Source: a virus
Strand: one strand, 5' to 3'
Virus record (IMG/VR): IMGVR_UViG_3300042731_001176
Location: 1 to 46,908 of that record
Length of the DNA: 46,908 nucleotides
Position numbers and translations under genes: made by a program. Below, in pieces: positions 6,883 to 45,765 of this stretch (the stretch's first letter is position 1; each line of letters starts with the position of its first letter). The notes below the pieces were generated by a model. That model was not told where the DNA came from, ran no database searches, and saw only the letters and a list, made by a program, of their open reading frames with translations.

Positions 6883-8409
6883 ATGCCGGGAGTTAACGTC
6901 ACTACTGCGGTGCGGTCTGGTCCTGTGGGTGCTGGAGATATCGTTGCAGGTCAGGTATTCATGGTGGGGGAGACCGAACGTGGTCCCACTGATGAGCCTA
7001 CCCTTCTTCGCTCTTTTAGCGATTACACGACCTACTACGGAAACTATAAATCAAGTAATCTTTACGCTCACGTCAAGACATACTTTGACGAGGGCGGTAC
7101 ACGCTGCTATGTTCAGCGTGTCGTTGGTGCAGGTGCAGGTAAAGGCACTGTCGCACTTACCTCAAACAATGCCGCTTCAGCCGGTATGACCATTACTGCC
7201 AAGGATGTTGGCGCTTGGGCTGCAAACCTTTCGGTTGAGGTTCTTAGCGGCGACTCGTCAGGCTACCGACTTAAGTTCGTGCTGGACGGTTCAACGCTTT
7301 TGACAACTCGTGACTTGGTAACGGTTGCTGACGGCATTAACTTTGTTAACGCTTCAGCAGTTAACCACCTTGTTGAAGCGACAACTACGCTCACTGATGC
7401 GCAGGCTGACGATGACAGCAACAACCTAGACACCGCCAGTGCTGCTGCTCTTAGCAGCAGTGCCGCAGACGGGAACGCTGTTTCAGACGCCGAGATCGTT
7501 GCTGCTCTCGCAACTGACGATACCGGCAAGTTGTCACCTAACCTGAACACTGGCGCTGTGTGTGCTCCGGGTCGTACAGGTTCAGCAATTTGGAACGCTC
7601 TTGCTAGCCATGCAGGCGACTTTAACCGTGTCGCTCTGTGTGCATTTGGTGCGTTAGACTCTGCGGGCACCGCTAAGACGGATGCTTCAGGCTACTACGC
7701 TAACACCAACGCTAGCAGCATGGCTTTCTACTGGCCACACGTGAAGGTTGCGGCTCCTGCGGTTACTGAACTTGCCACAGGCGAGTCAACCATTCAGGGT
7801 GCAACAATCACTCTCTCACCAGAGGCTTATGCCGCTGCTGCTCGTAGCCGTGCAGTTCAGCAGGCAGGCGGTCCTTGGCGGGTAGGTGCCGGTGCCATTT
7901 CGGCAGCACGCACTCTCAAGGGTCTTGCTGCTGATGTTACACCAGCAACCGGTGATTCACTAGACAATGCACGAGTTAACGCAATCCGCAAGGTCGGAGA
8001 TTCAATCCGAGTTTACGGCGCACGTTCAGTATCAAACGATGAGGCAAACTGGCGTTACATTTCAATGCGTGACACCCTGAACTACATTGTTCTCGGTGTG
8101 GAAGATCGCATGGAACGCCACGTGTTTAGCGTGATTGATGGACGAGGCAACACCTTCGGTGTTATCCGGGCTTCCATCAAAGCATTCCTTGACCCAATTC
8201 GGGTAGCAGGCGGTCTGTACGAGGCGTTCGATGATACGGGCGCTCCGGTTGACCCCGGTTACAGTGTGCGTGTTGATAGCACTATCAACCCTGCAACACA
8301 GTTGGCTACAGGTCTAGTCAAGGCGCAGGTTGGCGTTCGGGTTTCCGGCGTGGCAGACCTTATCGACATTACAATCACTAAGAGCAACTTGAGTGCTCCG
8401 CTAATCTAA
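6883..8409 (+). CDS. Tail sheath protein
   Basis: 508-residue contractile tail sheath subunit. The N-terminal MPGVNVTTAVRSGPVGAGDI and GQVFMVGETERGPTDEPTLLRSFSDYTTYYG are the conserved sheath opening. The C-terminal half has NAIRKVGDSIRVYGARSV, NYIVLGVEDRMERHVF, and a final beta strand VADLIDITITKSNLS that forms the inter-subunit handshake. An Ala/Ser/Asp-rich insertion at about residues 165-215 is probably surface-exposed. The gene has a GGAGG ribosome site and its own promoter region and is followed 14 bases later by the tube gene. It establishes the phage as a myovirus. Confidence 0.93.
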   Translation: MPGVNVTTAVRSGPVGAGDIVAGQVFMVGETERGPTDEPTLLRSFSDYTTYYGNYKSSNLYAHVKTYFDEGGTRCYVQRVVGAGAGKGTVALTSNNAASAGMTITAKDVGAWAANLSVEVLSGDSSGYRLKFVLDGSTLLTTRDLVTVADGINFVNASAVNHLVEATTTLTDAQADDDSNNLDTASAAALSSSAADGNAVSDAEIVAALATDDTGKLSPNLNTGAVCAPGRTGSAIWNALASHAGDFNRVALCAFGALDSAGTAKTDASGYYANTNASSMAFYWPHVKVAAPAVTELATGESTIQGATITLSPEAYAAAARSRAVQQAGGPWRVGAGAISAARTLKGLAADVTPATGDSLDNARVNAIRKVGDSIRVYGARSVSNDEANWRYISMRDTLNYIVLGVEDRMERHVFSVIDGRGNTFGVIRASIKAFLDPIRVAGGLYEAFDDTGAPVDPGYSVRVDSTINPATQLATGLVKAQVGVRVSGVADLIDITITKSNLSAPLI

Positions 8410-10628: not shown

Positions 10629-13600
10629 ATGGCGACAGAAGAAAAGGTTGTAATTAAGGTTGAGGTGGATGCCGATATCAGTAATGATATCGCTGCTATT
10701 CGTAATCGCCTTAAGGCAATCGAAGATCGCATGGGTTCTTTTAACCGAACAGCCAAAAACATGGATCGTGGCCTTGATCGGGTTAATAAGCGGTTCGATA
10801 AGATGGGTAACGTTCTTCGTAAAGTTACTCAGGTTTTCTTAAAGTTTACGGCTGCTTTAGCGAAGTTTTCGTTTATTGCTTTAGCAGGTCAGATCGGTTT
10901 GTTTACTGCTGGCTTACTTGCTGCTAAGGCTGCTCTTGTTACGGGCAGGGCCGCAGTGTCGGCGTATCAAGCCTCGTTAAGAGGTTTATCGGTTGCGGCG
11001 GCTGGTGTTGCTACGGCGATGGCTGTGGCGGCTGCGGCTATGCGTCAGTTTAATGAGGCTCAGTTGGGTTCTCAGTTCGGTGGCGGTCCTCAGGGTAGAT
11101 TGAACGCTGTTAGAGCCACTAGAGGTATTGATAGCCGGAGTGCTGGCCTTCTTGGCCGAGAGGCAACTGCCGCTATTGCAGGCTCACTTGGCCGTGCGGG
11201 TGTCCGTCCCGGCCAGACTGGCAACATCGTTCGACAGTTGTATAACATTTCTGGCGGTGATGCTAAGGCTGCGCAAAGTTTAGCAGCCGCAATGGGTTCT
11301 GGCGATCTTGATAAAGCACGGACTTCGTTGCGCAGTGCAGTTGGATTTAATCAAGGGTCGCTTGCCAACGTGTCTACCATGCGGGGTCTTATGGGCGTTG
11401 TGGCGGGCGGTGGCGCTACTGGCGCTAACTTCCGTTCAGTGGGCGAAGACATGGCTTCAACTTTTGTGGGTACTCTTAAGACTGAGTTCTCAGGATTAGT
11501 AAATGTGTTTGCTGATTTGGGTGCGCCCCTGCTTGAGCCGTTCCGTCAGTCGTTTGTTAATATCTCTCGTATTCTTAGAGAAGATGTTTTGGCGATGTCA
11601 GTGGCCCTTCAGAAGTTTGGTGCGGAGTCGTTTGCTCCCACGATTGAGTCTTTTATGGCATCAACAAGCGACTTCATTCGCAAGAACATTATTGCGAACA
11701 TTGGCAATGTTAAAGAGATGGGCCAGTCGTTTGTAGATTTTGGCAAGGCTGTTAAAGAGTTCTTCGCAGATATTGGCGATTTCCTTGGCAGGTTGGAACC
11801 TGCTGCTGATGTTGTTATGGACATGTTTCGTGCGCTTGGTGATGCTGCTGGCGGTCGTGGTTTGTTCCAGCAGTTCAATCGTTTGGTTGTGGAGAATGCT
11901 GAGGCGTTTAAGGACTTTGGTGCGTCTATTGGTAATGTGATTGGCGCTTTGTTTGATCAGTTGTCTGGCGGTCAGATGGGGTTCTTCAATAAGTTGCCGT
12001 TGTTGGCGGATGTGTTTAATACGTTAGCGAATCGGGTTATTCCTGCGCTGTTTGATGTGTTTAATCGTTTTGCTCCTCTTATGGAACGTCTGCCGGGTGC
12101 GTTGGAGTCGTTGGCTAATGTTCTAGAGATGTTGGCTCCGATTGTTGGGACTTTGGTTTCAGCAGTGAACACTCTTGTGGGCGGCTTGCAATCAATGGGT
12201 GGCTTGGGTGATATTGGTACGGTCGCTTTGATGGCTGGTTTCATGATGATGACCAAGGGCAGAGGCCGTTCCATGCTTGGTCGTGGAGCACGTAATGTAG
12301 CAGCAGGCGGGTCGGGCGCTCGGGCTATTACGTCGGCGTCTACTGTAACTAGGGCTAGTGCCGCAAATATGGCTGCGATCAATGCAAATATAGCGTCTGG
12401 CGTTCATCGTCGTGGTCGCCTTGCGGGCAGTTTCCTCAATCTGAGAAATTCTGCTCATACTTCTTTGACTGCGGGCCGAGGTGCTGGCTTCTTTGGTCGG
12501 GCTGGAAAGTTGGGTGCGCTGGCGTTCGGCCTTGAGGGCCTTAACATGATTGGCGACTACAGAGACGGCGGATTCAGCGGTATTGCGAGCGGGTACAATC
12601 AGAGGGCTACAGACAGCCCAATTTTTGCTGGCCTTAGTACAGGTTCGGCGGCGTCGTTCATTGCTGGGCCGCAAATAGGTCTTGGGGTTGGTGGTGCCAC
12701 GACTTTACTTGGTGCGGTTAATCAGGGGCTAGCAGGCAACAATAGCATAGGGAACACTCTTACGGGTGCGCTTGGTGGTGCTGCGTTGGGTGCAAGTATC
12801 GGTTCGTTTGGCGGTCCGTTGGGTATGGCTGCGGGTGCTGTAGTTGGTGGTATCATTGGCGGGGTTGGTACATTTTTTGCAGGTAGAAAAGGTCAAGAAC
12901 GACTAAAGAAGGCGTCTAGAGATGCAGCCGGACAAGTTCAGTTAGACATTGCCGCTTTTGAAGTTGGTTCAGGTAGTGCGGCGTTTAATACACTAGCCAA
13001 TCAGCAGGAACTGCTTATGAAAGCAAGGGAAGTCGCTATTGACGATAAAGGTAATTACGTAAACGAGGGGGACACTAAAGAATTCCAAGATTTCGTAAGG
13101 TCTCTAGGTATTGATCCTAACTCTATTCACCTTGATGAATTTTTCAAAGAAATCATGAGTGATAACACATTGGTGAATATGGAGGACAGATTACTTGAAG
13201 CAGAGCGGCTGTATACTGATCAGATGCAATCCATTGCTAATCAAACGGGATTATCAATGGAGGAAGTTGAGAGAGTAATTAACGATTTCAACATTGACCC
13301 GTTTATGGACTACATGGAAGACAACGTTGCGGCTGTTATCAACTTCGCTAATCGAACTGTTGCCGACCTGAATCAAGTGTTCTTACCCAACTTCTTCACT
13401 AGCCAGCAGCAGAAAAACGAATTGTTGGCCACAAACCAAGCCCAACTTAATGACATAGTTTCGGGGTACGGTGCAACCGGTACTGTTACCACGGAACAAG
13501 CAATGGATTTCTTGTCCACGCAAACTCAAATTAATATGGCAAATGGTATGACTCCGACGCAGGCATCGCTTACGGCTATTCAGGCGTTTGGCTTTAACAT

Positions 13601-23705: not shown

Positions 23706-24729
23706 AAGCAAGGGTTACACTTTCGATGACGTGTTGATTGTTCCGAAGTATTCGGAAGTCCGCAGTCGTACCGATGTTGACTTATCAGTACAACTGGGTA
23801 AACATCATTTGAAGATGCCTTTGATTGCGGCCAATATGGACACCGTATGTGGACCACGAATGGCTAGCGCTATGGACAGCCTAGGAAGTTTCGGCGTCAT
23901 GCACAGAAACATTCCTTTAGTTGCTAGCGGTGATCCATTAACCAACACGAGGTTTGGTTCTGTTGCTGGACGGACAATCCGTTCGGCAGTGGCATTTGGA
24001 GTCAACGATGATCTAGATATTGTGATCCAGCAGGCTAACAGTTGGCGCACGCAGATTTTGGTTCTGGACATCGCCCACGGCCATAGCAAGCACGCTTTAA
24101 AGGCGTTAGAGTATGTCATCTCAGAGATTGACCATGAGGCTACGTTCATTGGAGGCAATGTCGCTACTGCGCAGGCTGTAGAAGACTTTGCTAAGATCGG
24201 CGCAGACGTTGTTAAGGTTGGTATTGGCCCCGGAAGCGTGTGCTCTACTCGTGTAGTGGCTGGTGTGGGGGTTCCTCAGTTGACTGCTATTGAGGAGTGT
24301 TCTGCTGTGGCTGATGCGGTGGGTATTCAAACTATTGCGGACGGGGGCATCAAGACGCCGGGAGACGCCGCTAAGGCACTGGCGGCGGGCGCTGATGCTG
24401 TAATGATTGGTGGAATGTTTGCCGGAACAGACGAGGCCCCCGGAAAGAAGATTACTCTGGAAGATGGAACTGTCGTCAAGGAGCACCGTGGTATGGCTTC
24501 TGCTGAAGCAGGGTCGTCGTTCCCTGAAGGTGTTTCAGGTACCGTGGCTTCTAAGGGTCCGGTGGCAGACGTAGTAGAATCAATTAACCGTGGCATTCGG
24601 TCTGCGTGTAGTTATGTTGGGGCTGGTTCGCTGGCCGAATTGTATGAAAGGTCAGAATTCGTAGAAATCTCTCCTGCGGGGTTGCGTGAATCCGCTCCGC
24701 ATGATATACTTAACGCTAACTTATGGTAA
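23692..24729 (+). CDS. IMP dehydrogenase / GMP reductase family enzyme without CBS domains
   Basis: 345-residue TIM-barrel enzyme of guanine nucleotide metabolism. Visible signatures are [33 protein letters not shown], the nucleotide loop [20 protein letters not shown] with catalytic Cys184, [20 protein letters not shown], and [21 protein letters not shown] near 126 is more like IMP dehydrogenase (DTAHGHS), whereas RSACSYVGA near the end and the total length are like GMP reductase. The CBS pair of bacterial GuaB is absent. The flap ([25 protein letters not shown]) lacks the usual Arg-Tyr of IMPDH. It either makes XMP for GTP or returns GMP to IMP; the sequence does not settle this. Confidence 0.85.
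24682..24710 (+). promoter_or_regulatory. Promoter inside the IMPDH-like gene driving the DNA polymerase
   Basis: TTGCGT (24682-24687), 17-base spacer and TATACT (24705-24710), ending twelve bases before ATG 24723. The leader would be only about five or six bases, too short for a Shine-Dalgarno. Confidence 0.55.
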
Positions 24730-26660
24730 ACGAAGACTCAATTACACTGTTTGACGATTGGCTGCACTCTCAAAGCACGCAAGCCGAGGGAACTTTAGGG
24801 AAGGTTACGCTTGTACGCTCAGATGAGCAATTCGCTGACTTCCGTGACTGGTTACTTGGTAAAAGCCGACCTATTGCGTATGACATTGAGGCAACTGGCC
24901 TAGACACATACTCTCCCGAATGGGAGATTAAGAGCATCCAATGGGGAGATATTAGCGAAGCGTTCGTTTTCATCTGGAAGGAGCCGTGGTTCCAAAAGTC
25001 GATTGATTTAGTCATGAATGAGACTAAGCATCGCCTGCTAGCACACAACGCTGCTTACGACGCTATTGGCCTTGACCGCCACGGGCACGTTGATGCTATC
25101 AAGATTCTAGACCGAACGTTTGATACAAAGATTCTTGCGCACCTTGCCGACCCACGGAGTCGTGCTGAGGGTGGCGTCGGCCACGGTCTTAAGAACCTGT
25201 CGTTTCACCACGTAGATAAGTCTGCCCCTGATTCAGACAGCGCTTTGAAGGATTTGTTCAAAGCAAATAAGTGGTCAGTCAAGGAGGGCTGGAAGAACAT
25301 TCCTCCTGCACACCCGACGTTGGTACATTACGCTGGTACGGACGTTATTTTGACTGCTAGGTTGTTCCCTAAACTTCGTGATGAGATCAAGCGTCAAACA
25401 ATGGATCATCTTGTTAAGTACGAGCACACAATCTTGAAACTGGTTGTGGCTATGGAACGGCGAGGTATGCGTATTGATGTTGACTACGCTGAGCAGTTGG
25501 TTGAGAGCATGACGACTGAAGAGAAGCGCAATATTGGTATTGTTCAGTCGTTTGGTGTTGAGAACCATAACGCCACAAAAGACGTTGCAGAGGGGCTACA
25601 GAAACTTGGGATCACTTTGATTGAGACAACAGCCTCAGGCGCTCTGAAAGTAGACAAAACAATTCTGAACGCAATTGCTGACGACGAGAACTCTGGAAAC
25701 GCTGGAATGCTTGCAAGAGCAGTTATGGCCGCTAAGAACAATGCTAAATGGCGTGACAGTTATGTTATTGCCTCACTGGAATCTATGGACTCTAACGGTA
25801 GAGTGCATCCGAAGATCAACAGCCTTCAGGCCCGAACCGGTCGTATGTCGGTAAACAACCCTCCGCTCCAGCAGTTACCCTCTGGCGGTGATGCTATACG
25901 TCGAATGTTCTTAGCGGAAGAGGGATGCCGAATGTCGTCTATCGACTTTTCGGGTGTTGAACTTAGGGTGTTGGCTGCTTTATCTCAGGACCCTGTTATG
26001 CTTAAGGTTTTCCGTGAAGGTGCGGACCTGCATCAAACTACTGCCGATAACACGGGTGTGACTCGTAAAGTAGCGAAGACAGTGAACTTCGGTAAGGTCT
26101 ATGGTGCAGGCCCTAAGACGCTGGCGAGACAGTCAGGTCTTTCCGTGGAAGAGGCACAGAATGTGTGCGATCTCTTTGATGCCACGTACAAGGGCGTTAC
26201 AGAGTTCTCTCACAAACTAGCATACCCGGTGAAGAAGGGGCATAGAAACTACGTAATCACCCATACAGGACGTAAACTGCCTGTGGATGCTGAGCGGCCT
26301 TATGCCGCTCTTAATTACTGCATTCAGTCCACGGCTCGTGATATACTGGGTAAGGCGATGATTGATGTAGCAGATCAGGGCCTTTGGGACTATGCTATGC
26401 TGCCCATTCATGACGAAATTCTTTTTAGTTTCCCTGAGGATCAGGCAGTTGAGTTGTGCCGACACGCTGGGGTTGCTATGGAGACAGTTCTGAAAGAAGT
26501 ACATATTTCTACTGAACCGGACTTGGGAGGTGCCTCTTGGGGCACGCTATATACAGACGGCGAACATGAAGTTATTGAGTTGACTGACGATGATCGCCGC
26601 AAGTACGGGGACGATAAACTGAAACGGCTGCTTTTCAGTGAGCAGGACTTCCGTTTTTGA
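24723..26660 (+). CDS. Family A DNA polymerase with 3'-5' proofreading exonuclease
   Basis: 645 residues. Exonuclease motifs: AYDIEATGLD near 52, LLAHNAAYDAIGL near 105, and LVHYAGTDVILTARLF near 205. Polymerase motifs: A, MSSIDFSGVELRVLAALSQDP near 405; B, RKVAKTVNFGKVYGAG near 453; C, MLPIHDEILFSFPED near 560. No 5'-3' exonuclease domain is present. The motif B residue matching Phe762 of E. coli Pol I is Phe, the ancestral form linked in phage surveys with fast, virulent replication. This is the replicative polymerase of the phage. It overlaps the IMPDH-like gene by seven bases, has no Shine-Dalgarno, and has a promoter just upstream. Confidence 0.95.
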   Translation: MVNEDSITLFDDWLHSQSTQAEGTLGKVTLVRSDEQFADFRDWLLGKSRPIAYDIEATGLDTYSPEWEIKSIQWGDISEAFVFIWKEPWFQKSIDLVMNETKHRLLAHNAAYDAIGLDRHGHVDAIKILDRTFDTKILAHLADPRSRAEGGVGHGLKNLSFHHVDKSAPDSDSALKDLFKANKWSVKEGWKNIPPAHPTLVHYAGTDVILTARLFPKLRDEIKRQTMDHLVKYEHTILKLVVAMERRGMRIDVDYAEQLVESMTTEEKRNIGIVQSFGVENHNATKDVAEGLQKLGITLIETTASGALKVDKTILNAIADDENSGNAGMLARAVMAAKNNAKWRDSYVIASLESMDSNGRVHPKINSLQARTGRMSVNNPPLQQLPSGGDAIRRMFLAEEGCRMSSIDFSGVELRVLAALSQDPVMLKVFREGADLHQTTADNTGVTRKVAKTVNFGKVYGAGPKTLARQSGLSVEEAQNVCDLFDATYKGVTEFSHKLAYPVKKGHRNYVITHTGRKLPVDAERPYAALNYCIQSTARDILGKAMIDVADQGLWDYAMLPIHDEILFSFPEDQAVELCRHAGVAMETVLKEVHISTEPDLGGASWGTLYTDGEHEVIELTDDDRRKYGDDKLKRLLFSEQDFRF

Positions 26661-27876: not shown

Positions 27877-27960
27877 GCCCCTGTGGCGGAATAGGCATAC
27901 GCAGGAGACTTAAAATCTCTGGCCCGTAAGGGCTTGTGGGTTCAAGTCCCACCGGGGGTA
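27877..27960 (+). tRNA. tRNA-Leu (anticodon UAA)
   Basis: An 84-base type II tRNA. Acceptor stem GCCCCTG / CGGGGGT (with one G-U at the end and one inside). D-stem GCG/CGC. Anticodon stem GGAGA/TCTCT with loop CTTAAAA, giving anticodon TAA at positions 34-36. A long variable arm GGCCCGTAAGGGCTT as expected for leucine, T-arm GTGGG-TTCAAGT-CCCAC, discriminator A at 27960. The CCA end is not encoded and must be added by the host. It decodes TTA, a codon that the phage uses often. Confidence 0.95.
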
Positions 27961-27975
27961 CTAGAAAGGAGCACA

Positions 27976-28512
27976 ATGAATATTTTTGTAGTAGACGAAA
28001 GTCCAGAAAAAGCGGCTGAGGCACTGTGCGATAAGCACGTACCGAAGATGATTGTTGAGACAACACAGATGCTTGTTTCTGCTTTGCGGCGGCACGGGGC
28101 AACCGATGCTGACGTTCCTCTAACGAAGGCTGGCACCCCTCACAAGGGCGGCTACCACAATCATCCTGCTACTCGTTGGGTCGGGGATTCACTGACTAAT
28201 GCTCAGTGGCTTCTGGCCCACGGTTATGGACTGTGTGAGCAGTTTGAGTTTAGGTTCAATAAGACTCATGCCTGTTACGAGCAGTTGGTGAACGTGGAAA
28301 GCACGATAGCCCGTATTCCTGATCAGGGTTTGACTGATATTGCATTGTGTGTGGGAGAGGCGTTGCAGAACGGTCGAACCCATGCTCCGCTTGCTGAAGC
28401 AGTTGACACATACAGGAATTTCTATAGAATAGATAAGGCTGATTTCGCCAAATGGGAAAAGGGCTGTGATGCCCCCGTTTGGTGGGGTTCAGTAGTTGAC
28501 ACGTATCTCTAA
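27976..28512 (+). CDS. Conserved phage-type protein of unknown function (MNIFVVDE family)
   Basis: 178 residues from ATG 27976, which has AAAGGAG seven bases upstream; an upstream in-frame extension would run through the tRNA and is rejected. The opening MNIFVVDESPEKAAEALCDKH followed by VPKMIVETTQML is a pattern I recall from conserved proteins in many large phages. The GYHNHPATRWVGDS segment later is part of the same pattern. Conserved His, Cys and Lys residues (CDKHxxKM, HNHPxxRW) suggest an enzyme or metal site. I do not know an established function and assign none. Confidence 0.7.
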   Translation: MNIFVVDESPEKAAEALCDKHVPKMIVETTQMLVSALRRHGATDADVPLTKAGTPHKGGYHNHPATRWVGDSLTNAQWLLAHGYGLCEQFEFRFNKTHACYEQLVNVESTIARIPDQGLTDIALCVGEALQNGRTHAPLAEAVDTYRNFYRIDKADFAKWEKGCDAPVWWGSVVDTYL

Positions 28513-29993: not shown

Positions 29994-31589
29994 ATGCCAT
30001 CTCCAGATACACGAGAATATGTTGATTTAACAATATTCGATGATGACCCTGTTGCGGTCATGAATGAGATTTTAACTGCGGGCCGCACCCTTCTTCCTGA
30101 GTGGACTCCTGCGGTTGGGCAAATTGAGACGGTGCTAGCCGAGGCTATTGCTTTTAGAAGTTCTGAACTTGCGGCTGGTATTAATCGTCTGCCTGATTCC
30201 ACGACCGAAGTCCTGTTACAGTTGTTTGGCTTGGTTAGGGATGATGGTGTGGCTGCAACCGCTACTGTTTCGATTGAGTTTAACTCTGCTGGCTCGCTGC
30301 CCGCTGGAACTGAAATTTTGTATGTGGACTCGGTGACCGAGCAGGCGTACAACTTTGCGTTAGATGCAGACGTTTCTCGTACTTCTCAGGGCACCGCAAC
30401 TGGTGTTGCTGTTACTGCTGTTACTGTGGGCACGCAGTATAACATCGGTGTGAATGGTTTTAATGCTGTCGCCATTTCTCCAAGTACAACAATTGATTCT
30501 ATTGTGTTTACTTCTGACTCTTCGGGCGGCACAAATCAAGAAACCGACACGGAGTATTTCAACCGTGCGACTACGTTGTTGGCCAGTTACACTACCGCCA
30601 ACACTACGAGTTCTCAGATTAAGTTTTATGTCGGTGCAAATAAGTCCTATGCTAATCGTGTAGAAGTTTACAACCAGCGGCGGTATAGAGACAGAGATAC
30701 TACTAATGATGAGTTTGCGTTGCATGATGGTGCAGTTTTGGTAGCGGTTGCGTCTACGGTAAGTACTCCGGCTAGTGCTTCTTCCGAGTTGTCAGTGTCG
30801 GCATCAAACCTTTCAGATTTGCACACTTCTTTGGTGGATCGTGTTCCGTCTGGTTTGACGATTGACGTTATGTCTGCCGAGTTGGTTGACGTGGATGTGA
30901 CTGTAGGTGTCAAAGCCCTGTCAGGTGTGAATACCTCTACGTTGCGGACGGCTCTTGAAGACGCCGTGAAGGCGTACCTTGATCCGAACAACTGGCCGTT
31001 CAACACTCAGCGTGTGCGTTACAACGACATTGTTGCTCTTTTAGAGAATGTGACGGGCGTTGATTACATTCAAGATTTGAAACTGAATGCGTCTACGCTG
31101 CTTCCGTCTGGCGGCTCAAACGTCGGGTACACTACGACTAGCGGCGGTTCTAAAGCAACAGTGACTTTAGACATCGGGGGCGGTGCTACTAACGGAAGTT
31201 ATGACCCCGGTGAGGCGGCGTTTTACTTTGTCGATTCCACGACGGACCCTGATAATCCTACTGTGTACACGTTTGTGAACACAGAAACTTTCACGATTTC
31301 TGGTAATGCTGCTCAGGATGTTGCTTATCAAGCGGTTTCAAACGGTGTGAACTTTAACGACACTGCTAATGGCGGCGTTATTCCCACGACTCCCGGTGCG
31401 CTTATTGGTTCGGCAGGTGATTCTGGTGGTACTGCAAGTATTGACGGCAACGCTACAGGCGGTAGTGATGACACGAGCCAGTTCACAACTTTGAACGGCA
31501 CGGGAGACGGAATTACCTCCGACATTGTGTTGCGTAATCTCGGAACGCTTGTTACTTTCGGTGACATCACTATCACATTCCTATCGTAA
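29994..31589 (+). CDS. Baseplate J-like wedge protein (gp6-like)
   Basis: 531 residues. The N-terminal half has FRSSELAAGINRLPDSTTEVLLQLFGLVRDDG, VSIEFNSAGSLPAGTEILYV, and TVGTQYNIGVNGFNAV, the usual start of baseplate J proteins. The C-terminal part (LSGVNTSTLRTALEDAVKAYLDPNN, VRYNDIVALLENVTGVDYI) is the typical J ending. An extra Gly/Thr-rich beta extension of about 130 residues follows. It forms the wedges that hold the baseplate together and triggers sheath contraction. It lies 17 bases after the gp25-like gene. Confidence 0.85.
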   Translation: MPSPDTREYVDLTIFDDDPVAVMNEILTAGRTLLPEWTPAVGQIETVLAEAIAFRSSELAAGINRLPDSTTEVLLQLFGLVRDDGVAATATVSIEFNSAGSLPAGTEILYVDSVTEQAYNFALDADVSRTSQGTATGVAVTAVTVGTQYNIGVNGFNAVAISPSTTIDSIVFTSDSSGGTNQETDTEYFNRATTLLASYTTANTTSSQIKFYVGANKSYANRVEVYNQRRYRDRDTTNDEFALHDGAVLVAVASTVSTPASASSELSVSASNLSDLHTSLVDRVPSGLTIDVMSAELVDVDVTVGVKALSGVNTSTLRTALEDAVKAYLDPNNWPFNTQRVRYNDIVALLENVTGVDYIQDLKLNASTLLPSGGSNVGYTTTSGGSKATVTLDIGGGATNGSYDPGEAAFYFVDSTTDPDNPTVYTFVNTETFTISGNAAQDVAYQAVSNGVNFNDTANGGVIPTTPGALIGSAGDSGGTASIDGNATGGSDDTSQFTTLNGTGDGITSDIVLRNLGTLVTFGDITITFLS

Positions 31590-38578: not shown

Positions 38579-40045
38579 ATGGCTCAGAAATTCTTAACTA
38601 ATCTTGATCTAAATAAGAATGAGTTGCAGAATGCGAAGATTCAGAATCTTGGCACGGCTCCTGCTTCTCCTGAAGATGGTCAAGTTTACTTCGATACCGG
38701 TGATAATGCCCTTAAGGTTTATGACGGCACGTCATGGGTGAACCTTCAGGAAGGTGACATTTCTGGTGTTACTGCCGGTACTGGCCTTTCCGGTGGCGGC
38801 ACTAGCGGTGCTGTCACGATCAACCTAGCAGATACTGCTGTTTCGGCAGGCTCGTATGGTTCTGCAACCGCTATCCCTACGTTCACTGTTGACGCTCAGG
38901 GCCGCTTGACTGCTGTCAGCACTGCTTCGATTTCTACCAACCTTTCTTTTACTGACGACAACACTACTTCTGCTAGCGTGGCCCTGAATGGTGGCACGCT
39001 CAGCATTCTTGGTGGAACCGGTGTTGCCACTACCGCTAACGATTCCTCTGATTCGCTTACGGTGGCGATTGGTCAGGATGTTGGAACCACAGCCGACGTG
39101 ACGTTCAATTCGGTAACAGCCGCTTTGACAGGCAACGTAACTGGTAACGTCACAGGCAACGTAACTGGTAACGTAACGGGCGACTTGACGGGCGATGTCA
39201 CAGGCAACGTGACCGGAAACTTGACTGGTAACGTAACGGGTGATGTCACTGGTGATGTGACTGGTGATGTGACCGGTAACGTAACTGCTGGTCTGATCAG
39301 GGTTGGAGTTACAGCCAATAACGAAATTGATACCTCCAGCGGTAACCTAACTATCGACTCTGCTGGTGGCACAGTCACTGTTGACGACAACCTTGTTATT
39401 TCAGGAGACCTAACTGTCAGCGGTACCACGACTACAGTTAACACCGAGACTATTAATCTCGCAGATAACGTCATTGTTATCAACTCTAACGCTACGGGTT
39501 CTGCAACAGAAGACGGTGGTATTGAGATTGAGCGAGGAGATGACACTAACGTTACGCTTCTCTGGGATGAGTCAAACAACCGATGGACAATTGGCTCCGA
39601 GACCTTAGTCGCTGGCACGTTCATTGGTGCCTTAACGGGTAATGTTACAGGTGACGTAACGGGTGACGTAACCGGCGACTTGACCGGTACGGTTCTTACC
39701 GCTTCTCAGACTAACATTACAGGCATTGGCACGATCACTACCGGCGAATGGCAGGCAACCGATATTGCTGTTGCCCACGGCGGTACGGGTGCCTCTACTG
39801 CTGCCGGTGCTAAGACAAACCTTGGGTTTATGACTCGCTATGCGGCGACAATTGGCAATAACTCAGACACAGCCATTGCTGTAACACACAGCCTCGGCAC
39901 CGACGATGTTGTCGTGGAAGTCTACGACGCTTCCACGAAAGAAACTGTTATCTGCGACGTTGACCGCACAAGCGCTAATGAGGTCACGTTGACGTTCTCC
40001 TCAGCCCCAGACACTAACGCTCTCCGGGTCGTTATCATTGGCTGA
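38579..40045 (+). CDS. Tail fibre with NVTG tetrapeptide repeats
   Basis: 488 residues. The start (FLTNLDLNKNELQNAKIQNLG, SPEDGQVYFDTGDNALKVYDG) is a common fibre attachment module. A central run of G-N/D-V/L-T tetrapeptides at about 180-238 and a shorter one at about 350-370 predict beta-solenoid shafts. Between them lies the module DLTVSGTTTTVNTETI-(x)-IEIERGDDTNVTLLWDESNNRW, shared with the fibres at 16383 and 41957. The C-terminal beta domain (TAIAVTHSLGTDDVVVEVYD) probably caps the trimer or binds the receptor. Confidence 0.75.
   Translation: MAQKFLTNLDLNKNELQNAKIQNLGTAPASPEDGQVYFDTGDNALKVYDGTSWVNLQEGDISGVTAGTGLSGGGTSGAVTINLADTAVSAGSYGSATAIPTFTVDAQGRLTAVSTASISTNLSFTDDNTTSASVALNGGTLSILGGTGVATTANDSSDSLTVAIGQDVGTTADVTFNSVTAALTGNVTGNVTGNVTGNVTGDLTGDVTGNVTGNLTGNVTGDVTGDVTGDVTGNVTAGLIRVGVTANNEIDTSSGNLTIDSAGGTVTVDDNLVISGDLTVSGTTTTVNTETINLADNVIVINSNATGSATEDGGIEIERGDDTNVTLLWDESNNRWTIGSETLVAGTFIGALTGNVTGDVTGDVTGDLTGTVLTASQTNITGIGTITTGEWQATDIAVAHGGTGASTAAGAKTNLGFMTRYAATIGNNSDTAIAVTHSLGTDDVVVEVYDASTKETVICDVDRTSANEVTLTFSSAPDTNALRVVIIG
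39118..39291 (+). repeat. G[N/D]VTG-type tandem 12-bp repeats
   Basis: About 14 consecutive 12-base units encoding G-N-V-T or G-D-V/L-T. Codons vary between units, so the array is kept by selection on the protein as well as by duplication. Similar arrays occur at 42624-42795 and 42955-43190. Confidence 0.85.
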
Positions 40046-40241: not shown

Positions 40242-41957
40242 GTGGCAAGAAAATTCAAAACTCCTATAACTATTGATGAGTTGGGGTCTGCTTCTTCGCA
40301 GGCTCTCGCCGCTAATGTGGATGGTGATTCACAGAATCGTATCAATATTGATGCGGGCGGTAAGATTACTTGGGGTTCTGGTTCTGCCACTGGTGACACG
40401 ACACTTTACAGGTCGGCTGCGGATACGCTGAAGACCGACGATGCTTTTACTGCCACGTCTTTGGCTGTTACTGGTCAGTTTACGTTTCCTACGTCGGATG
40501 GTTCTGCGGATCAGGTTATTACAACTAATGGTTCTGGTACGTTAACTTGGTCTGATGTTGTTGCGAATGCTACGGTGTCTGATACGGCTCCGTCTTCTCC
40601 TTCTACTGGTCAGATTTGGTATGAGTCTGATACTGGTAAGACGTTTGTGTATTACGATTCGTATTGGATTGAGGTTGGCGCTTCGCCGCCTGCGTCTCCT
40701 TTTATTACGGATTTGGATGAGGATACGAAGATTCAGGTTGAGGAATCTGCGGATGAGGATAAGATTCGGTTTGATACTGCTGGTTCGGAGCGGATGATTA
40801 TTGATGCTTCTGGCAATGTCGGTATCGGCACCAGCAGCCCAGAAACACCGCTGAACATTGTTACGACCAATAAACTTGGCGCTACATTCACGGGCACAAC
40901 CGATGGTGAAGGCGTGCGTGTTGACCAGTCAAACTACACGTCTGGTAACTATGTTTCGCTGATTGAGTCTTCGCATCAAGACGATCAGACTGCGCCGCAC
41001 GTTCGCATTGGTGCAATGTTTGACGGCGGTGGTTCTCACCTTGCGTTTGGCACAAGTAACTCGTATGCTAGCGGCATCACGAACACCGCTATGTTCATTG
41101 ACGAAACGGGCAATGTCGGTATCGGTACAACTAGCCCATCAACATCTGCTCCATACGAAGATTACATACTAACTCTTGGGGGAGGTGGCTGGTACACCTT
41201 CGACACCATGAGTATGGTTAACGGTCCCTCCAGTACCGGAGTTAACTCCAATGATCCCGGTATTTTGCTCAACAGTGTTGCCATGAATACTTCGTCTTGG
41301 GCTACTCCCGGTCTCTACTTCACCTCAACTGACGGTCAGTTTACGACAGAGAGTCCCAAATACCTTGCCGCCATCGTGGGTCAGGCAACTTCAACATATA
41401 ACGACGATGGTGACGCTGGAATGAACATCAACTTCCGTCTGACTGGCAATAATCAAGGAACAAGCAACCTGCTATACGCTACATCGTATGGTTACAACAT
41501 GACAGCCACTTCATTTTACCACTTTACCGACAATACGGCGTCTCTGGGGTTGAGCAGCCTGCGCTGGTCAGTGGTGTACGCCGCCTCTGGCTCCATCAAT
41601 ACTTCAGATATTAGAGATAAGACTGATGTTGCTGACCTTGATTACGGTTTGGATTTTGTTAATAACCTCCGCCCTGTCAAATACCGTTACGCTGACAGAG
41701 ACGCTGAGATTGAGGGTGTTCGTACACATATGGGGTTTATCGCTCAGGAGGTTAGGTCTGTTCTGGGTGACGACGCATCAAGTCGTGGTCTGTGGACAAG
41801 TTCTGAGTTTGAGAAGACAGAGTTCATTGACGATGACGATAATCCTGTCTACTCAAATGCGGATAGACAGGGACTGCGCTATGAAGAGATAATCGCCCCT
41901 ATAGTGAAAGCCATTCAAGAGTTGACTGCTCGTATTGAAACATTGGAGGCCGGATAA
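40242..41957 (+). CDS. Tail fibre with C-terminal S74 intramolecular chaperone
   Basis: 571 residues from a GTG start. The N-terminal module (FKTPITIDELGSASSQALAAN) leads to a beta shaft with GQIWYESDTGKTFVYYDSYW and two SGNVGIGTSSP/TGNVGIGTTSP units (about 190 and 288). Residues about 450-571 are a peptidase S74 chaperone: NTSDIRDKTDV, LDFVNNLRPVKYRYADRDA, GFIAQEVRSVLG, and YEEIIAPIVKAIQELTARIETLE. It helps trimerise the fibre and is then cleaved off. The next gene starts in its stop codon (TAATG), with GGAGG just before, so they are coupled. Confidence 0.8.
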   Translation: MARKFKTPITIDELGSASSQALAANVDGDSQNRINIDAGGKITWGSGSATGDTTLYRSAADTLKTDDAFTATSLAVTGQFTFPTSDGSADQVITTNGSGTLTWSDVVANATVSDTAPSSPSTGQIWYESDTGKTFVYYDSYWIEVGASPPASPFITDLDEDTKIQVEESADEDKIRFDTAGSERMIIDASGNVGIGTSSPETPLNIVTTNKLGATFTGTTDGEGVRVDQSNYTSGNYVSLIESSHQDDQTAPHVRIGAMFDGGGSHLAFGTSNSYASGITNTAMFIDETGNVGIGTTSPSTSAPYEDYILTLGGGGWYTFDTMSMVNGPSSTGVNSNDPGILLNSVAMNTSSWATPGLYFTSTDGQFTTESPKYLAAIVGQATSTYNDDGDAGMNINFRLTGNNQGTSNLLYATSYGYNMTATSFYHFTDNTASLGLSSLRWSVVYAASGSINTSDIRDKTDVADLDYGLDFVNNLRPVKYRYADRDAEIEGVRTHMGFIAQEVRSVLGDDASSRGLWTSSEFEKTEFIDDDDNPVYSNADRQGLRYEEIIAPIVKAIQELTARIETLEAG

Positions 41958-44734
41958 TGGCTATTGATTTCCCAGATTCCCCATCCGTAAACGACACCCA
42001 CACAGTCAGCAACCGCACATGGCAATGGAACGGAACATACTGGTCTATCGTGGTCAGTAACGCTTCTGGGACTGTTGCGACAACAGACTACGTGGATTCA
42101 ACTGTTGAAACTGGTGTGCGTTGGAACGAGGCTGTAGACTTAGCGACTGCGGCTGTGCTTCCTAATTCTCCCACGTATGACAATGGTTCTTCTGGAGTTG
42201 GCGCTACTCTGACGGCTGGGTCCAATGCCCGTATTGTTGTTGACGGTGTGAATGGTACGGCTGGTGATAGGGTGCTTGTCAAGAATCAGGCGGCTGCTGC
42301 TCAGAACGGTATTTACACTGTTACCACTCAGGGTGATGGTTCGACTGCTTATGTGTTGACTCGTGCAACCGATAATGATACTAGTTTGTATGCTGGCGAT
42401 GCTACGTGGGTTTTGGGCGGTTCTGATAATGCTAATCAGGGTTTTATTCTCACGTCTGAGGGTACTGGTACTGGTGAGGTTCATACGCTTGGTTCTGATT
42501 CTTTAACTTACACTCAGTTTTCTGGTGTGAGTTCTGTTACTGCTGGCACGAATTTGTCGAAGACTGGTAACACGATTAATCTTGATGCTTCTTTGACTGG
42601 TTTGTCGGCTGTTACGTCTACTGCGTTTACTGGTGATTTGACTGGCGATGTGACAGGTAATTTGACTGGTAATGTGACCGGCGATGTAACTGGTAATGTG
42701 ACCGGTAACCTCACAGGTAATGTGACAGGCGATGTAACTGGTGACTTGACTGGCAATGTGACAGGTAATGTGACTGGTGATGTTACAGGTACAGCAGATG
42801 TTGCGACGAGCGTTACTGTTACCGCTAACAACACTACGAACGAAACAGTTTATGTTGCTTTTGTTGACGGGGACACAGGCACTCAGGGTATTGAAACTGA
42901 CACAGGGTTGACCTACAATCCTAGTACTGGAGTTATTGGCACTACTTCTGTGACGGGCAATCTCACCGGTAATGTGACTGGCAATGTGACCGGAGATGTT
43001 ACAGGTGACTTGACCGGTAACGTGACCGGTAATGTGACTGGCAATATTACTGGTAATGTGACGGGTGATGTGACGGGTGCCGTGACTGGAAACGTTACAG
43101 GGAACCTGACTGGTGATGTCACTGGCGACTTAAATGGTGATGTTACAGGCAACGTGACTGGTAACGTCACCGGAGATTTAACTGGTGACGTTTATGCGTC
43201 TAACGGAACGAGTAAGATTTTAGAGAACGGTGCTGACGGTACAGATGCTCAACTTACGGGCAGTGTTGTCGGTGATGTTACTGGCGATGTGACAGGAAAC
43301 GTCACATCTTCTGGAACTTCTACGTTCTCGGGCACAGTGAACCTTAACGGCGCTACTGTGTCAAATGCGGCGTTCAACTTGACTGGTGATTTGACAGGCA
43401 CGGCTGACACTGCAACGGTTGCCACGAATGTTACGGCCACAGCCAACAACTCTACAGATGAGACTGTTTATCTTACTTTTGTGGATGGCGCTACAGGCTC
43501 TCAAGGTATTGAGACGGACACGGGTCTATCGTACAATCCTAGCACGGGCGTGTTAACGACTACTTCTGTTACAGGCAACTTGACTGGGGATGTTACTTCA
43601 GGGAACATTCAAGTTGGTGTAACAGGCGATAACGAGATTGACACTTCGTCGGGTAACCTTACGCTTGATTCTGCTGGCGGCACAGTAGCGATTGATGATA
43701 ATGCTACGATTGCTGGCGATTTGACGTTAACTTCTACGGACGCAGGTTCGTCAGCCGCCCCTATTATTGACCTTTACCGCAACTCTGCTTCTCCTGCTGC
43801 CGCCGACTATCTTGGACAGATTCAGTATTCAGGTGAGAACTCAAACGGCGGAACAGAAATTTACGCTAAGGTAACTGGTAAAATTACAGACCCGACACAC
43901 ACTTCTGAAGATGGGTTGATTGAGACAGCCATCAAGGGTGCAGGGTCGTTCACTATTGTTAGCCGACAAAGGCACGACGAACTTCAACTCATAAATGGTG
44001 TTGGCTTGTCTGTGGCCGGTGACGTGACTATCTCAGGAAACCTAACTGTTGATGGCACCACGACTACGGTAAACTCCACAACGATTACCGTGGATGATAA
44101 AAACATTGAGTTAGGTTCTGTTGCTAGCCCCGATGACACAACTGCTGATGGTGGCGGTATCACACTTAAGGGCGCAACAGATAAAACCTTTAACTGGGTG
44201 GATGCTACGGATTCGTGGACCTCATCAGAACACATTGACCTTGCTTCAGGTAAAGCATTCTACATTAACAATACTTCTGTACTGTCGGCTTCGGCACTTG
44301 GTACGGCTGTTGCAGTTTCGCTGCTGTCAACTACTGCCTCTTCTTCAGAAGGCCGCATTGCTTGGGATTCCACGAATGATAAGATTATTGTTGGCGATGG
44401 TTCTACTCAACGTGAGTTTGCTTCGTCTACTTTGAAGACGAATGCACGGACTGCGAGTTATACGCTTGTTTTGGCTGATAAAGATAAGTTGGTTGAGATG
44501 GGTGTCGGTTCGGCTAATACGTTGACTGTTCCTCCTAACTCTTCTGTTGCTTATCCTGTCGGTACTCAGATTACTGTTTTACAGACTGGTGCTGGTCAGA
44601 CGACTCTTACTCCGGGTTCGGGTGTTACTGTTAACGGTACTCCGGGCCTTAAGTTGCGGGACCAGTGGTCTTCTGCTACACTAATCAAGAGGGGCACAGA
44701 TACTTGGGTTGCTGTGGGTGACCTTTCCGACTGA
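41957..44734 (+). CDS. Long tail fibre with multiple NVTG repeat arrays
   Basis: 925 residues. The start PDSPSVNDTHTVSNRTWQWNG and WNGTYWSIV is a standard fibre module. An Ala/Val-rich head domain follows (VDLATAAVLPNSPTY, GTAGDRVLVKNQAAAAQNGIYTV), matching a knob-like module found in many phage fibres. At least two long G[N/D][V/L]T arrays (about 223-280 and 333-412) alternate with domains that repeat each other (ETVYVAFVDGDTGTQGIETDTG, ETVYLTFVDGATGSQGIETDTG). This shows internal duplication. The C-terminal 90 residues (TASYTLVLADKDKLVEMGVG) form a common tip domain. Confidence 0.75.
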   Translation: MAIDFPDSPSVNDTHTVSNRTWQWNGTYWSIVVSNASGTVATTDYVDSTVETGVRWNEAVDLATAAVLPNSPTYDNGSSGVGATLTAGSNARIVVDGVNGTAGDRVLVKNQAAAAQNGIYTVTTQGDGSTAYVLTRATDNDTSLYAGDATWVLGGSDNANQGFILTSEGTGTGEVHTLGSDSLTYTQFSGVSSVTAGTNLSKTGNTINLDASLTGLSAVTSTAFTGDLTGDVTGNLTGNVTGDVTGNVTGNLTGNVTGDVTGDLTGNVTGNVTGDVTGTADVATSVTVTANNTTNETVYVAFVDGDTGTQGIETDTGLTYNPSTGVIGTTSVTGNLTGNVTGNVTGDVTGDLTGNVTGNVTGNITGNVTGDVTGAVTGNVTGNLTGDVTGDLNGDVTGNVTGNVTGDLTGDVYASNGTSKILENGADGTDAQLTGSVVGDVTGDVTGNVTSSGTSTFSGTVNLNGATVSNAAFNLTGDLTGTADTATVATNVTATANNSTDETVYLTFVDGATGSQGIETDTGLSYNPSTGVLTTTSVTGNLTGDVTSGNIQVGVTGDNEIDTSSGNLTLDSAGGTVAIDDNATIAGDLTLTSTDAGSSAAPIIDLYRNSASPAAADYLGQIQYSGENSNGGTEIYAKVTGKITDPTHTSEDGLIETAIKGAGSFTIVSRQRHDELQLINGVGLSVAGDVTISGNLTVDGTTTTVNSTTITVDDKNIELGSVASPDDTTADGGGITLKGATDKTFNWVDATDSWTSSEHIDLASGKAFYINNTSVLSASALGTAVAVSLLSTTASSSEGRIAWDSTNDKIIVGDGSTQREFASSTLKTNARTASYTLVLADKDKLVEMGVGSANTLTVPPNSSVAYPVGTQITVLQTGAGQTTLTPGSGVTVNGTPGLKLRDQWSSATLIKRGTDTWVAVGDLSD
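42624..43190 (+). repeat. Two arrays of 12-bp G[N/D][V/L]TG repeats
   Basis: Arrays at about 42624-42795 and 42955-43190 made of 12-base units. They are separated by a 160-base spacer whose encoded domain recurs at about 43420-43570. Confidence 0.8.
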
Positions 44735-44745
44735 GGTGTGTAGGC

Positions 44746-45765
44746 ATGGCTATAAATAAAGATGTAGGACAAGGTGGCAAGTTACCTGAAAGTTCTGTAA
44801 CTACAACGCCGTCCACGTCTGGCGGGGGTACTCCCCTAATTGGTACGTCTTCTAATACGGTAGCATTTGGCGTTACCCCGTCATACACTGGTAAAGAAAA
44901 CACGGCAGACGTTCGGGCGTGGACGAATCCTAATGGTCCCGCTAACGCCGACAAGGCGGGTAAGGGTGGCCCGTCTACTAGTTCTCCGGGTGGGGCGAAT
45001 GTCTCCCAAGGATCAGAACAAACTTGTACGTTTGATATTGTTACGAGCGACACGTCCCCCGAAGATGAGGTTCGTGCAGGTTTTGCGTACAAGTTTATGC
45101 GTTCTACCACAGCCGCAGATGGAACTGTGGAGACTGAAGAAATTGGCGATTTCATGCCAGTCCGTCAGCCTAGCACGATGAACACTATTAGCGCTACTGA
45201 TGGTGATGATGCTTCAACTACTGTTACGTGGACGGCTCACGCTATTGGGGACTTTGGGGCGTCTGGTGACGCTTCGGATTATTCCGATGAAGGCTACGCT
45301 AGATACATCACGTTTCAAGCCACCCCTACGGGTGGGGGTTCTACGCAGCAAGCAATCGTAACGAATCAGCCTACGTCTTCGTCTAAGGTTCTTACAGGCT
45401 TGACTAACGGCACTGAGTATAGTATCCGGGCGAGACTGAGCAACACTCATCTTATCGGGGACTGGTCAAATAGTGTCATTATTACGCCTGTCGCTCCACC
45501 CTACTTCCCTCCGTTCTTTCCACCGTTTTTCCCTCCGTTTTTCCCTCCGTTCTTCCCTCCTTACTTCCCGCCTTTCTTCCCTCCGTTCTTTCCTCCTTAC
45601 TTCCCTCCGTTCTTTCCGCCGTTCTTCCCTCCTTACTTCCCTCCGTTCTTCCCGCCCTTCTTTCCTCCCTATTTCCCGCCGTTCTTCCCGCCTTTCTTCC
45701 CGCCATTTTTCCCTCCATTCTTCCCCCCATTCTTCCCTCCTTACTTCCCGCCAGCGTTCAAGTAA
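44746..45765 (+). CDS. Fibronectin III tail protein ending in 22 PP[F/Y]F repeats
   Basis: 339 residues. Residues 1 to about 140 are a Gly/Ser/Thr-rich beta region. Residues about 143-248 form a fibronectin III domain (STTVTWTAHAIGDF, SKVLTGLTNGTEYSIRARLSN). Residues 251-338 are 22 uninterrupted tetrapeptides: 15 PPFF, six PPYF and a final PPAF. Tyr appears every 12 residues in the middle of the array. Half the array is proline, so it should form a stiff polyproline II-type rod with a greasy aromatic surface. Proline codons (CCT, CCG, CCC, CCA) are mixed. No known phage fibre motif matches. The next gene is a prolyl hydroxylase-like enzyme, an obvious candidate modifier. Confidence 0.85.
   Translation: MAINKDVGQGGKLPESSVTTTPSTSGGGTPLIGTSSNTVAFGVTPSYTGKENTADVRAWTNPNGPANADKAGKGGPSTSSPGGANVSQGSEQTCTFDIVTSDTSPEDEVRAGFAYKFMRSTTAADGTVETEEIGDFMPVRQPSTMNTISATDGDDASTTVTWTAHAIGDFGASGDASDYSDEGYARYITFQATPTGGGSTQQAIVTNQPTSSSKVLTGLTNGTEYSIRARLSNTHLIGDWSNSVIITPVAPPYFPPFFPPFFPPFFPPFFPPYFPPFFPPFFPPYFPPFFPPFFPPYFPPFFPPFFPPYFPPFFPPFFPPFFPPFFPPFFPPYFPPAFK
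45496..45759 (+). repeat. 22 tandem 12-bp repeats encoding PP[F/Y]F
   Basis: 264 bases of 12-base units (CCN CCN TTY/TAC TTY), pyrimidine-rich on the + strand. Synonymous changes are spread through the array while the amino-acid pattern is exact, so the protein sequence is under selection. Confidence 0.9.

Follow-up and report, generated by a model that had tools for sequence, protein, structure and literature searches.

The question raised by this locus is what a phage might do with a protein tail built almost entirely of proline and aromatic residues. The window, meaning the whole stretch of DNA analysed, is a viral contig 46,908 bases long (IMG/VR record IMGVR_UViG_3300042731_001176). The array protein P0001, recognised from its ORF and translation, has 339 aa and is encoded on the plus strand at 44746..45765. 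In translation it consists of an N-terminal region of about 145 residues, an fn3-like domain, an array of PP[F/Y]F units and a C-terminal PPAFK. The fn3-like domain (residues 148-245; 45187..45480, plus strand) was matched by Pfam fn3 at E=0.0015; at 19.2 bits the match lies below the Pfam gathering cut-off of 25, which the array proteins of loci L030 and L004 pass. The array comprises 21 units (residues 251-334; 45496..45747, plus strand) and is delineated by its sequence and by purifying selection; the terminal PPAFK (45748..45762, plus strand) is followed by the stop. The stretch 45496-45759 thus reads as 21 PP[F/Y]F units plus PPAF, then K and the stop. It had been described as half proline, nearly half aromatic and uncharged, and the count of its 88 residues agrees (44 P, 37 F, 6 Y, 1 A, charge zero).

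Residues 251-339 of P0001 matched no Pfam or PHROG family at E up to 0.1. Structure prediction, which the original prediction had proposed as a check, gave little for the array: the AlphaFold pLDDT was about 50, and secondary structure was absent from the model. The AF2 model of the array protein is uninformative as to fold.

The array is a protein-level feature and is conserved as protein. Contig L122, 97% identical to the window before the array, was used for codon comparison. Over the 84 array codons, the two differ by 13 synonymous and 0 nonsynonymous changes, as compared with 13 synonymous and 8 nonsynonymous in the 250 codons before the array, so the earlier claim that synonymous variation reflects selection on the protein holds. 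Absence or frameshift of the array in close relatives had been named as the observation that would speak for dispensable slippage; the array protein is identical in L121 and L122. That expectation held for close relatives only, since 12 of 13 more distant contigs, chosen by tail sheath (62-68% identity), lack the array, which makes it a module that is gained and lost.

Within the PPxx units, the fourth position is Phe in 1379 of 1379 cases and the third is F in 1000, Y in 307, H in 60, W in 9 and another residue in 3 (array spans of 116 distinct arrays among the matches listed), counts to be read with the search pattern in mind, since a locus matched only if four or more of its units had Phe. 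Codon choice departs from that of background ORFs. The Phe of position 4 is encoded by TTC in 1190 of 1439 units, whereas the background favours TTT (5386 of 7437), and the second proline uses CCG in 515 of 1439 units as against 911 of 7896 background proline codons; these array counts include related arrays and are not independent. Purines are also commoner at proline third positions in the arrays than in background ORFs, which, with the raised CCG at the second proline, interrupts homopyrimidine runs instead of preserving them.

These data bear on two readings in which the protein would matter little. In the first, the array is a DNA-level element (a homopyrimidine tract, or a recombination or packaging signal) translated by chance. 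A repeat is indeed present in the DNA, since TRF reports one repeat of 12 bp (20.5 copies, score 268) and another of 36 bp (6.8 copies, score 310). Yet variation falls at third codon positions and leaves the protein unchanged, purine third positions of proline codons interrupt the homopyrimidine runs, synonymous identity between units does not rise at lag 3, and all 124 fetched loci carry the array in frame (125 array ORFs among the matches listed). A DNA-level function was rejected on these grounds, and its probability is negligible. The one locus of the 124 with more than one ORF of at least four units, L052, has these ORFs in distinct genes some 9 kb from each other, so a split or frameshifted array was seen in none of the 124. 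In the second reading, the array is a functionless and dispensable slippage expansion. The number of units is variable, ranging from 12 to 21 in the near homologues L124 and L123 and the window, as slippage would produce. Against this stand the lack of nonsynonymous change relative to L122, synonymous sites by which the units are not recent block copies, and the distribution of the arrays: a pattern of four consecutive units found at least 120 stretches in viral contigs but only three contigs (two MAGs) in 84,980 bacterial and archaeal species genomes. Slippage was thus rejected as well and is very improbable.

The spacing of Tyr within the array was examined as a possible structural clue. Tyr had been placed every 12 residues in the core, at 271, 283, 295 and 307; the interval is right, but the residues are 273, 285, 297 and 309, with further Tyr at 253 and 333. 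The interval is not universal, Tyr being spaced otherwise in L123 and L124. Among 63 distinct unit strings, a single other unit between two Tyr units is avoided (11 cases against 49.7 expected); enrichment is seen for spacings of three units (39 vs 27.7 expected) and five units (18 vs 9.4). A strict 36-bp or 12-residue rule was not upheld; taken over all Tyr pairs, the phase signal at period 3 is weak (p=0.027, uncorrected for the five periods tried), and next-neighbour spacing gives the clearer pattern. Of 98 runs of Phe units bounded by Tyr units, 66 are even in length, the expectation being 36%; counted by family, 30 of 55 are even (p=0.0015). In 71 distinct arrays of at least eight units these runs are mostly two or four units long, with single and triple runs rare. 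Synonymous sites have no matching periodicity, so the even-run pattern looks like a rule at the protein level, for which there is no explanation. In a threefold helix a four-residue unit turns by 120 degrees, and a three-unit spacing would keep Tyr on one face; the five-unit enrichment misfits this idea, and the pattern is reported as unexplained. Tyr spacing lends weak structural support to a polyproline-II rod.

The array gene lies behind baseplate, spike and fibre genes, as the original prediction had proposed in placing it in a tail-gene context. Tail sheath (6883-8409), DNA polymerase (24723-26660), Baseplate_J (29994-31589) and an S74-chaperone spike (40242-41957) are followed by P0002 (41957..44734, plus strand), a tail-fibre-like protein with TGNVTGDV repeats that matches PHROG tail/virion families and is encoded directly upstream of the array gene; further upstream genes encode fibre proteins with repeats. 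The best named relatives of the sheath and the DNA polymerase belong to actinobacteriophages (about 32-42% identity), so the host is likely an actinobacterium, judging from these similarities. The 12-bp repeats encoding TGNVTGDV occur in two tail-fibre genes (39128-39287, 42629-42791 and 42949-43191), and Asn/Asp hydroxylases could in principle use this repeat. The window also contains a B12-dependent ribonucleotide reductase (202-2157) and two tRNA genes, Leu and Ile (27877-27961 and 28168-28244).

The array is usually C-terminal: among the matches listed, 112 distinct array ORFs are complete at the 3′ end; 87 of them stop no more than 40 aa beyond the array, and 43 end in FK. In L007, L017 and L039 it is located between domains or well before the C-terminus. 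Of 66 non-redundant parts upstream of the array among the matches listed, 33 have fn3 and 5 have PASTA. Among 27 non-redundant tails of at least 35 aa behind the array, intein/Hint models match up to four and Peptidase_S74 matches two. Hint/intein-like or Peptidase_S74 domains, some recognised by Pfam and some by eye, were noted after the array in L006, L038, L057, L058, L078, L081, L101 and L031. In L031 the S74 domain is located directly behind PPAFK, where cleavage in front of the domain would leave the C-terminus that free arrays have; self-cleavage by Hint or S74 could thus make the array the mature C-terminus. Searches among named phages found no relatives of the array protein, with the array itself hidden by the low-complexity filter, and none of the PASTA-type N-terminus. 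Phage PPFF/PPYF arrays were also not found in the literature among the matches listed, in a search whose coverage largely excludes subscription papers.

The main clue to the array, missed in the original prediction, is a pair of 2OG-Fe(II) oxygenase genes directly 3′ of it. The first, P0005 (45804..46442, plus strand), begins after a gap of 38 bp and encodes a prolyl-hydroxylase-like protein (PF13640, E=1.6e-7; phrog_61 match). The second, P0006 (46439..46906, plus strand; PF13640, E=2.7e-5), is cut by the end of the record; its intact copy in L122 has 190 aa and matches PF13640 at E=2.5e-11. In L122 the array is followed by three oxygenases, of which the intact P0006 homologue is at 11694-12266 and the third at 12279-13142, and then by DUF6065. 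The prolyl hydroxylase group is characterised by an HxD...H iron triad and a basic residue for 2OG. P0005 has both; in its family alignment (A1, 28 sequences) H124xD126, H184 and R194 are invariant, and the second oxygenase family has H138, D140, H191 and K201. The AF2 model of P0005 is confident (pLDDT 92.5) and shows the double-stranded beta-helix fold of prolyl hydroxylases, and its best PDB matches (Foldseek, VIA) are prolyl hydroxylases, including prolyl 3-hydroxylase 1, the PBCV-1, B. anthracis and Chlamydomonas P4H, and PHD2. All 50 VIA entries among the matches listed are prolyl hydroxylases with Z of 15.9-17.3, most of them PHD2. Profile A1 matched P3H1 at 6.5e-8 and profile A2 matched B. 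anthracis P4H at 1.5e-6; profiles of both main oxygenase families also matched LH3 and PiuC. Motif and predicted fold place P0005 in the prolyl hydroxylase group, though such a fold alone does not prove activity on proline.

Arrays and oxygenases are linked well beyond the window. PF13640 was found in 46 of 50 array records among the matches listed, with a median of seven copies and at least five in 37 of the 50; it was missing altogether in 4. The 50 records comprised 46 of the 120 pattern-scan loci and all 4 loci of a further search. None of 42 random viral contigs of at least 16 kb had it, the 78 of 120 random loci left out being contigs shorter than 16 kb and 40 of unlisted size. The difference is pronounced (Fisher 1e-21, uncorrected for relatedness). 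The linkage is also directional. Only array loci with at least 3 kb on the flank concerned were counted. By a home-made profile, 61 of 72 among the matches listed have an oxygenase no further than 3 kb downstream (51 of 72 within 1 kb; median distance 145 bp), but only 1 of 47 has one within 3 kb upstream. The remaining 11 of 72 have none within 3 kb downstream; two of these have one about 4.5 kb away, and a third has one about 8.6 kb away.

The reverse search started from oxygenase family A2 and returned a proline-aromatic array in 44 of 49 newly fetched loci, an array being at least 10 P and at least 10 F/Y/W/H in 40 aa; the same rule gave 1 of 120 random loci. Usable loci had at least 2.5 kb upstream, and 23 of 72 oxygenase-selected loci were dropped for short upstream sequence. 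Since family A2 was aligned from array loci, the search is not wholly independent, though the array itself was not used in it. The 44 arrays are of three types, 27 of PP[FYHW]F, 11 of hexapeptide PPxFF and 6 of mixed PFF/PPFF, and all three types keep proline plus an aromatic pair. The hexapeptide type is PPxFF with a spacer, for example PPGFFA or PPGFFS. Upstream of oxygenases, this second type, (PPxFF plus A/S/G)n, was noted in L299, L301-L304, L312, L316, L317, L320, L326, L330 and L331. Five of the 49 loci have no array (L280, L286, L288, L292 and L325); short PPYFPPNFCPPC-like stretches occur in L286 and L288. The pairing of specific oxygenase families with specific array types is suggestive and confounded by kinship.

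Other genes recur in these neighbourhoods. Among 199 loci selected by array or oxygenase, DUF6065 was seen in 129 (e.g. L122:13139-13870), glutathione peroxidase in 51 (e.g. L265:15014-15637), a TauD-like dioxygenase in 21 (e.g. L028:11886-12746) and a weak Anp1-like glycosyltransferase candidate in 20 (e.g. L001:5995-6789). DUF6065, whose function is unassigned, may belong to the pathway; the search for named-phage relatives of this protein found none.

The array and oxygenase loci are related to one another, so their counts are not independent, and kinship was addressed in two ways. Single linkage at 65% chained 185 loci, and stricter thresholds were used instead. With clustering at 80% identity over 30% length, the oxygenase was kept in 26 of 33 array clusters and the array in 25 of 29 oxygenase clusters; at 70% identity, the link was kept in 7 of 10 array and 6 of 7 oxygenase clusters. 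The second control followed the lineage by its tail sheath, a gene about 37 kb from the array in the window. It included 13 contigs of at least 25 kb, which may be incomplete, and left out 20 of 33 sheath loci on shorter contigs; Baseplate-J relatives, sought for the same purpose, yielded nothing. One of the 13 sheath relatives has the array, and it is the one with seven oxygenases. A tetrapeptide array, sought over the whole record, is lacking from the remaining 12, which have either no oxygenase (10 contigs) or one (2 contigs). These two single oxygenases are of another type and have no proline array nearby, this being where other array types were sought. Array and oxygenase cluster are therefore jointly present or absent within one phage lineage.

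The linkage might still arise in another way. The array could be an unmodified structural or adhesive tip, with the oxygenases acting elsewhere (on other fibre proteins of the region, host metabolism via 2-oxoglutarate, surface glycans or nucleotides) and both merely sharing a mosaic tail-and-accessory cassette. Phage 2OG oxygenases usually appear in the literature as auxiliary metabolic genes (PMC9602691), cyanophage S-SCSM1 is rich in oxygenases without having the array, and the cassette also holds the DUF6065, glutathione peroxidase and TauD genes counted above (129, 51 and 21 of 199 loci). A mere shared cassette accounts less well for a direct and directional linkage that survives a reverse search returning three array unit types, for sheath relatives in which the lack of the array goes with the lack of the oxygenase cluster, and for an enzyme fold that is that of peptidyl-prolyl hydroxylases. 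This explanation is unlikely, though it deserves to be kept in mind.

The array is probably the tail of a virion protein, and the neighbouring phage enzymes probably hydroxylate it into a stiff and wettable rod. In this model, a protein of the tail-fibre region would carry, at its C-terminus or close to it, a proline-aromatic tail of extreme hydrophobicity, and the prolines of this tail would be the substrate of the prolyl-hydroxylase-type 2OG-Fe(II) oxygenases encoded directly downstream, usually in a cluster. Hydroxyproline would favour an extended polyproline-II-like rod, stiffening the chain, and would make it wettable; further decoration could follow. The rod may form an outward-facing tip or sheath of the tail fibre in contact with the host. 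Hydroxylation of the array is what we infer from the linkage seen in both search directions and from the modelled fold of P0005. A counter-point is the number of oxygenase paralogues, often 5-11, which is more than one substrate seems to need.

The original prediction had instead suggested a rigid hydrophobic needle, a membrane-active tip or a multivalent sugar binder, here taken as unmodified. Composition agrees with these roles, as do the aromatic third position, with its three exceptions, the constant Phe of position 4, the mostly C-terminal location and the fn3 and PASTA domains of the upstream parts (again among the matches listed). They leave the prolyl-hydroxylase cluster unaccounted for, the AF2 model offers no confident fold, and in L007, L017 and L039 the array is not at the tip of the protein. 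Taken together, these roles are improbable. A bolder form of the hydroxylation model can be offered tentatively: the array would be a hydroxyproline polymer processed stepwise by up to about ten diverged hydroxylases in an operon-like block, each reading a different proline or F/Y/H unit, as a prokaryotic counterpart of extensin/collagen maturation. It would be a mobile tail module swapped among fn3, PASTA and large fibre proteins, with some copies released by self-cleaving S74/Hint domains.

Should hydroxylation of the array be confirmed, many phage 2OG oxygenases counted as "metabolic" genes would have to be classed under "virion maturation", and repeat fibres would gain a new class whose unit is very simple. 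Prolyl 4-hydroxylase genes are reported to be abundant accessory genes of aquatic viruses, and according to a published survey their viral use "remains cryptic" (PMC9301287). The array-oxygenase linkage names a concrete candidate substrate, phage-encoded beside the enzymes, and the arrays adjoin genes resembling collagen prolyl hydroxylases in many uncultured water phages, which suggests a purpose for these puzzling viral enzymes.

Several known systems resemble parts of this one. The vCPH of PBCV-1 (PDB 5c5t) is, like P0005, virus-encoded and shares its fold, but it is an enzyme of an algal virus. According to one report, the PBCV-1 enzyme hydroxylates proline-containing peptides in a sequence-specific manner, the virion contains prolyl-4-hydroxylase, hydroxyproline was sought in virion proteins and not found, and the role of the enzyme in replication is unknown (PMC7019647). 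Cyanophage oxygenases (PHROG 61) belong to the same superfamily as P0005. For S-SCSM1, 24 2OG-Fe(II) oxygenase genes are reported (PMC9602691). Many of them are scattered in a genome without a proline-aromatic array (no PPFF match and no such array in its five pieces), whereas the oxygenases of the window directly follow the array. S-SCSM1 virion proteins ORF19, ORF217 and ORF245 (L332, L335 and L336) have non-aromatic proline repeats, and the oxygenase cluster ORF240-243 of this phage immediately precedes tail fibre genes. No arrays were present either within up to 20 kb of flanking sequence in four further named phage records that have one or two oxygenases each.

Plant extensins and other hydroxyproline-rich rods contain long proline repeats with Tyr, stiffened by prolyl 4-hydroxylases, and are recognised by Ser-Pro(3-5) motifs. 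The array shares the long proline repeats with Tyr, but it belongs to a phage and not to a plant cell wall; its PP[F/Y]F units in the window have neither Ser nor PPP, so the extensin motif is absent. Collagen and collagen-like phage proteins also place a proline-rich repeat in fibre genes, and the closest sequence relatives of the oxygenases include collagen prolyl 3-hydroxylase 1 and LH3. The array differs from collagen in its four-residue unit and its almost half aromatic composition; Gly is absent from the window array, and with it the Gly-X-Y repeat. If the proposed mechanism is right, the array system would resemble collagen and extensin maturation, and by the features compared it is a member of neither; it would be a repeat scaffold with dedicated hydroxylases in phages, built from an undescribed unit.
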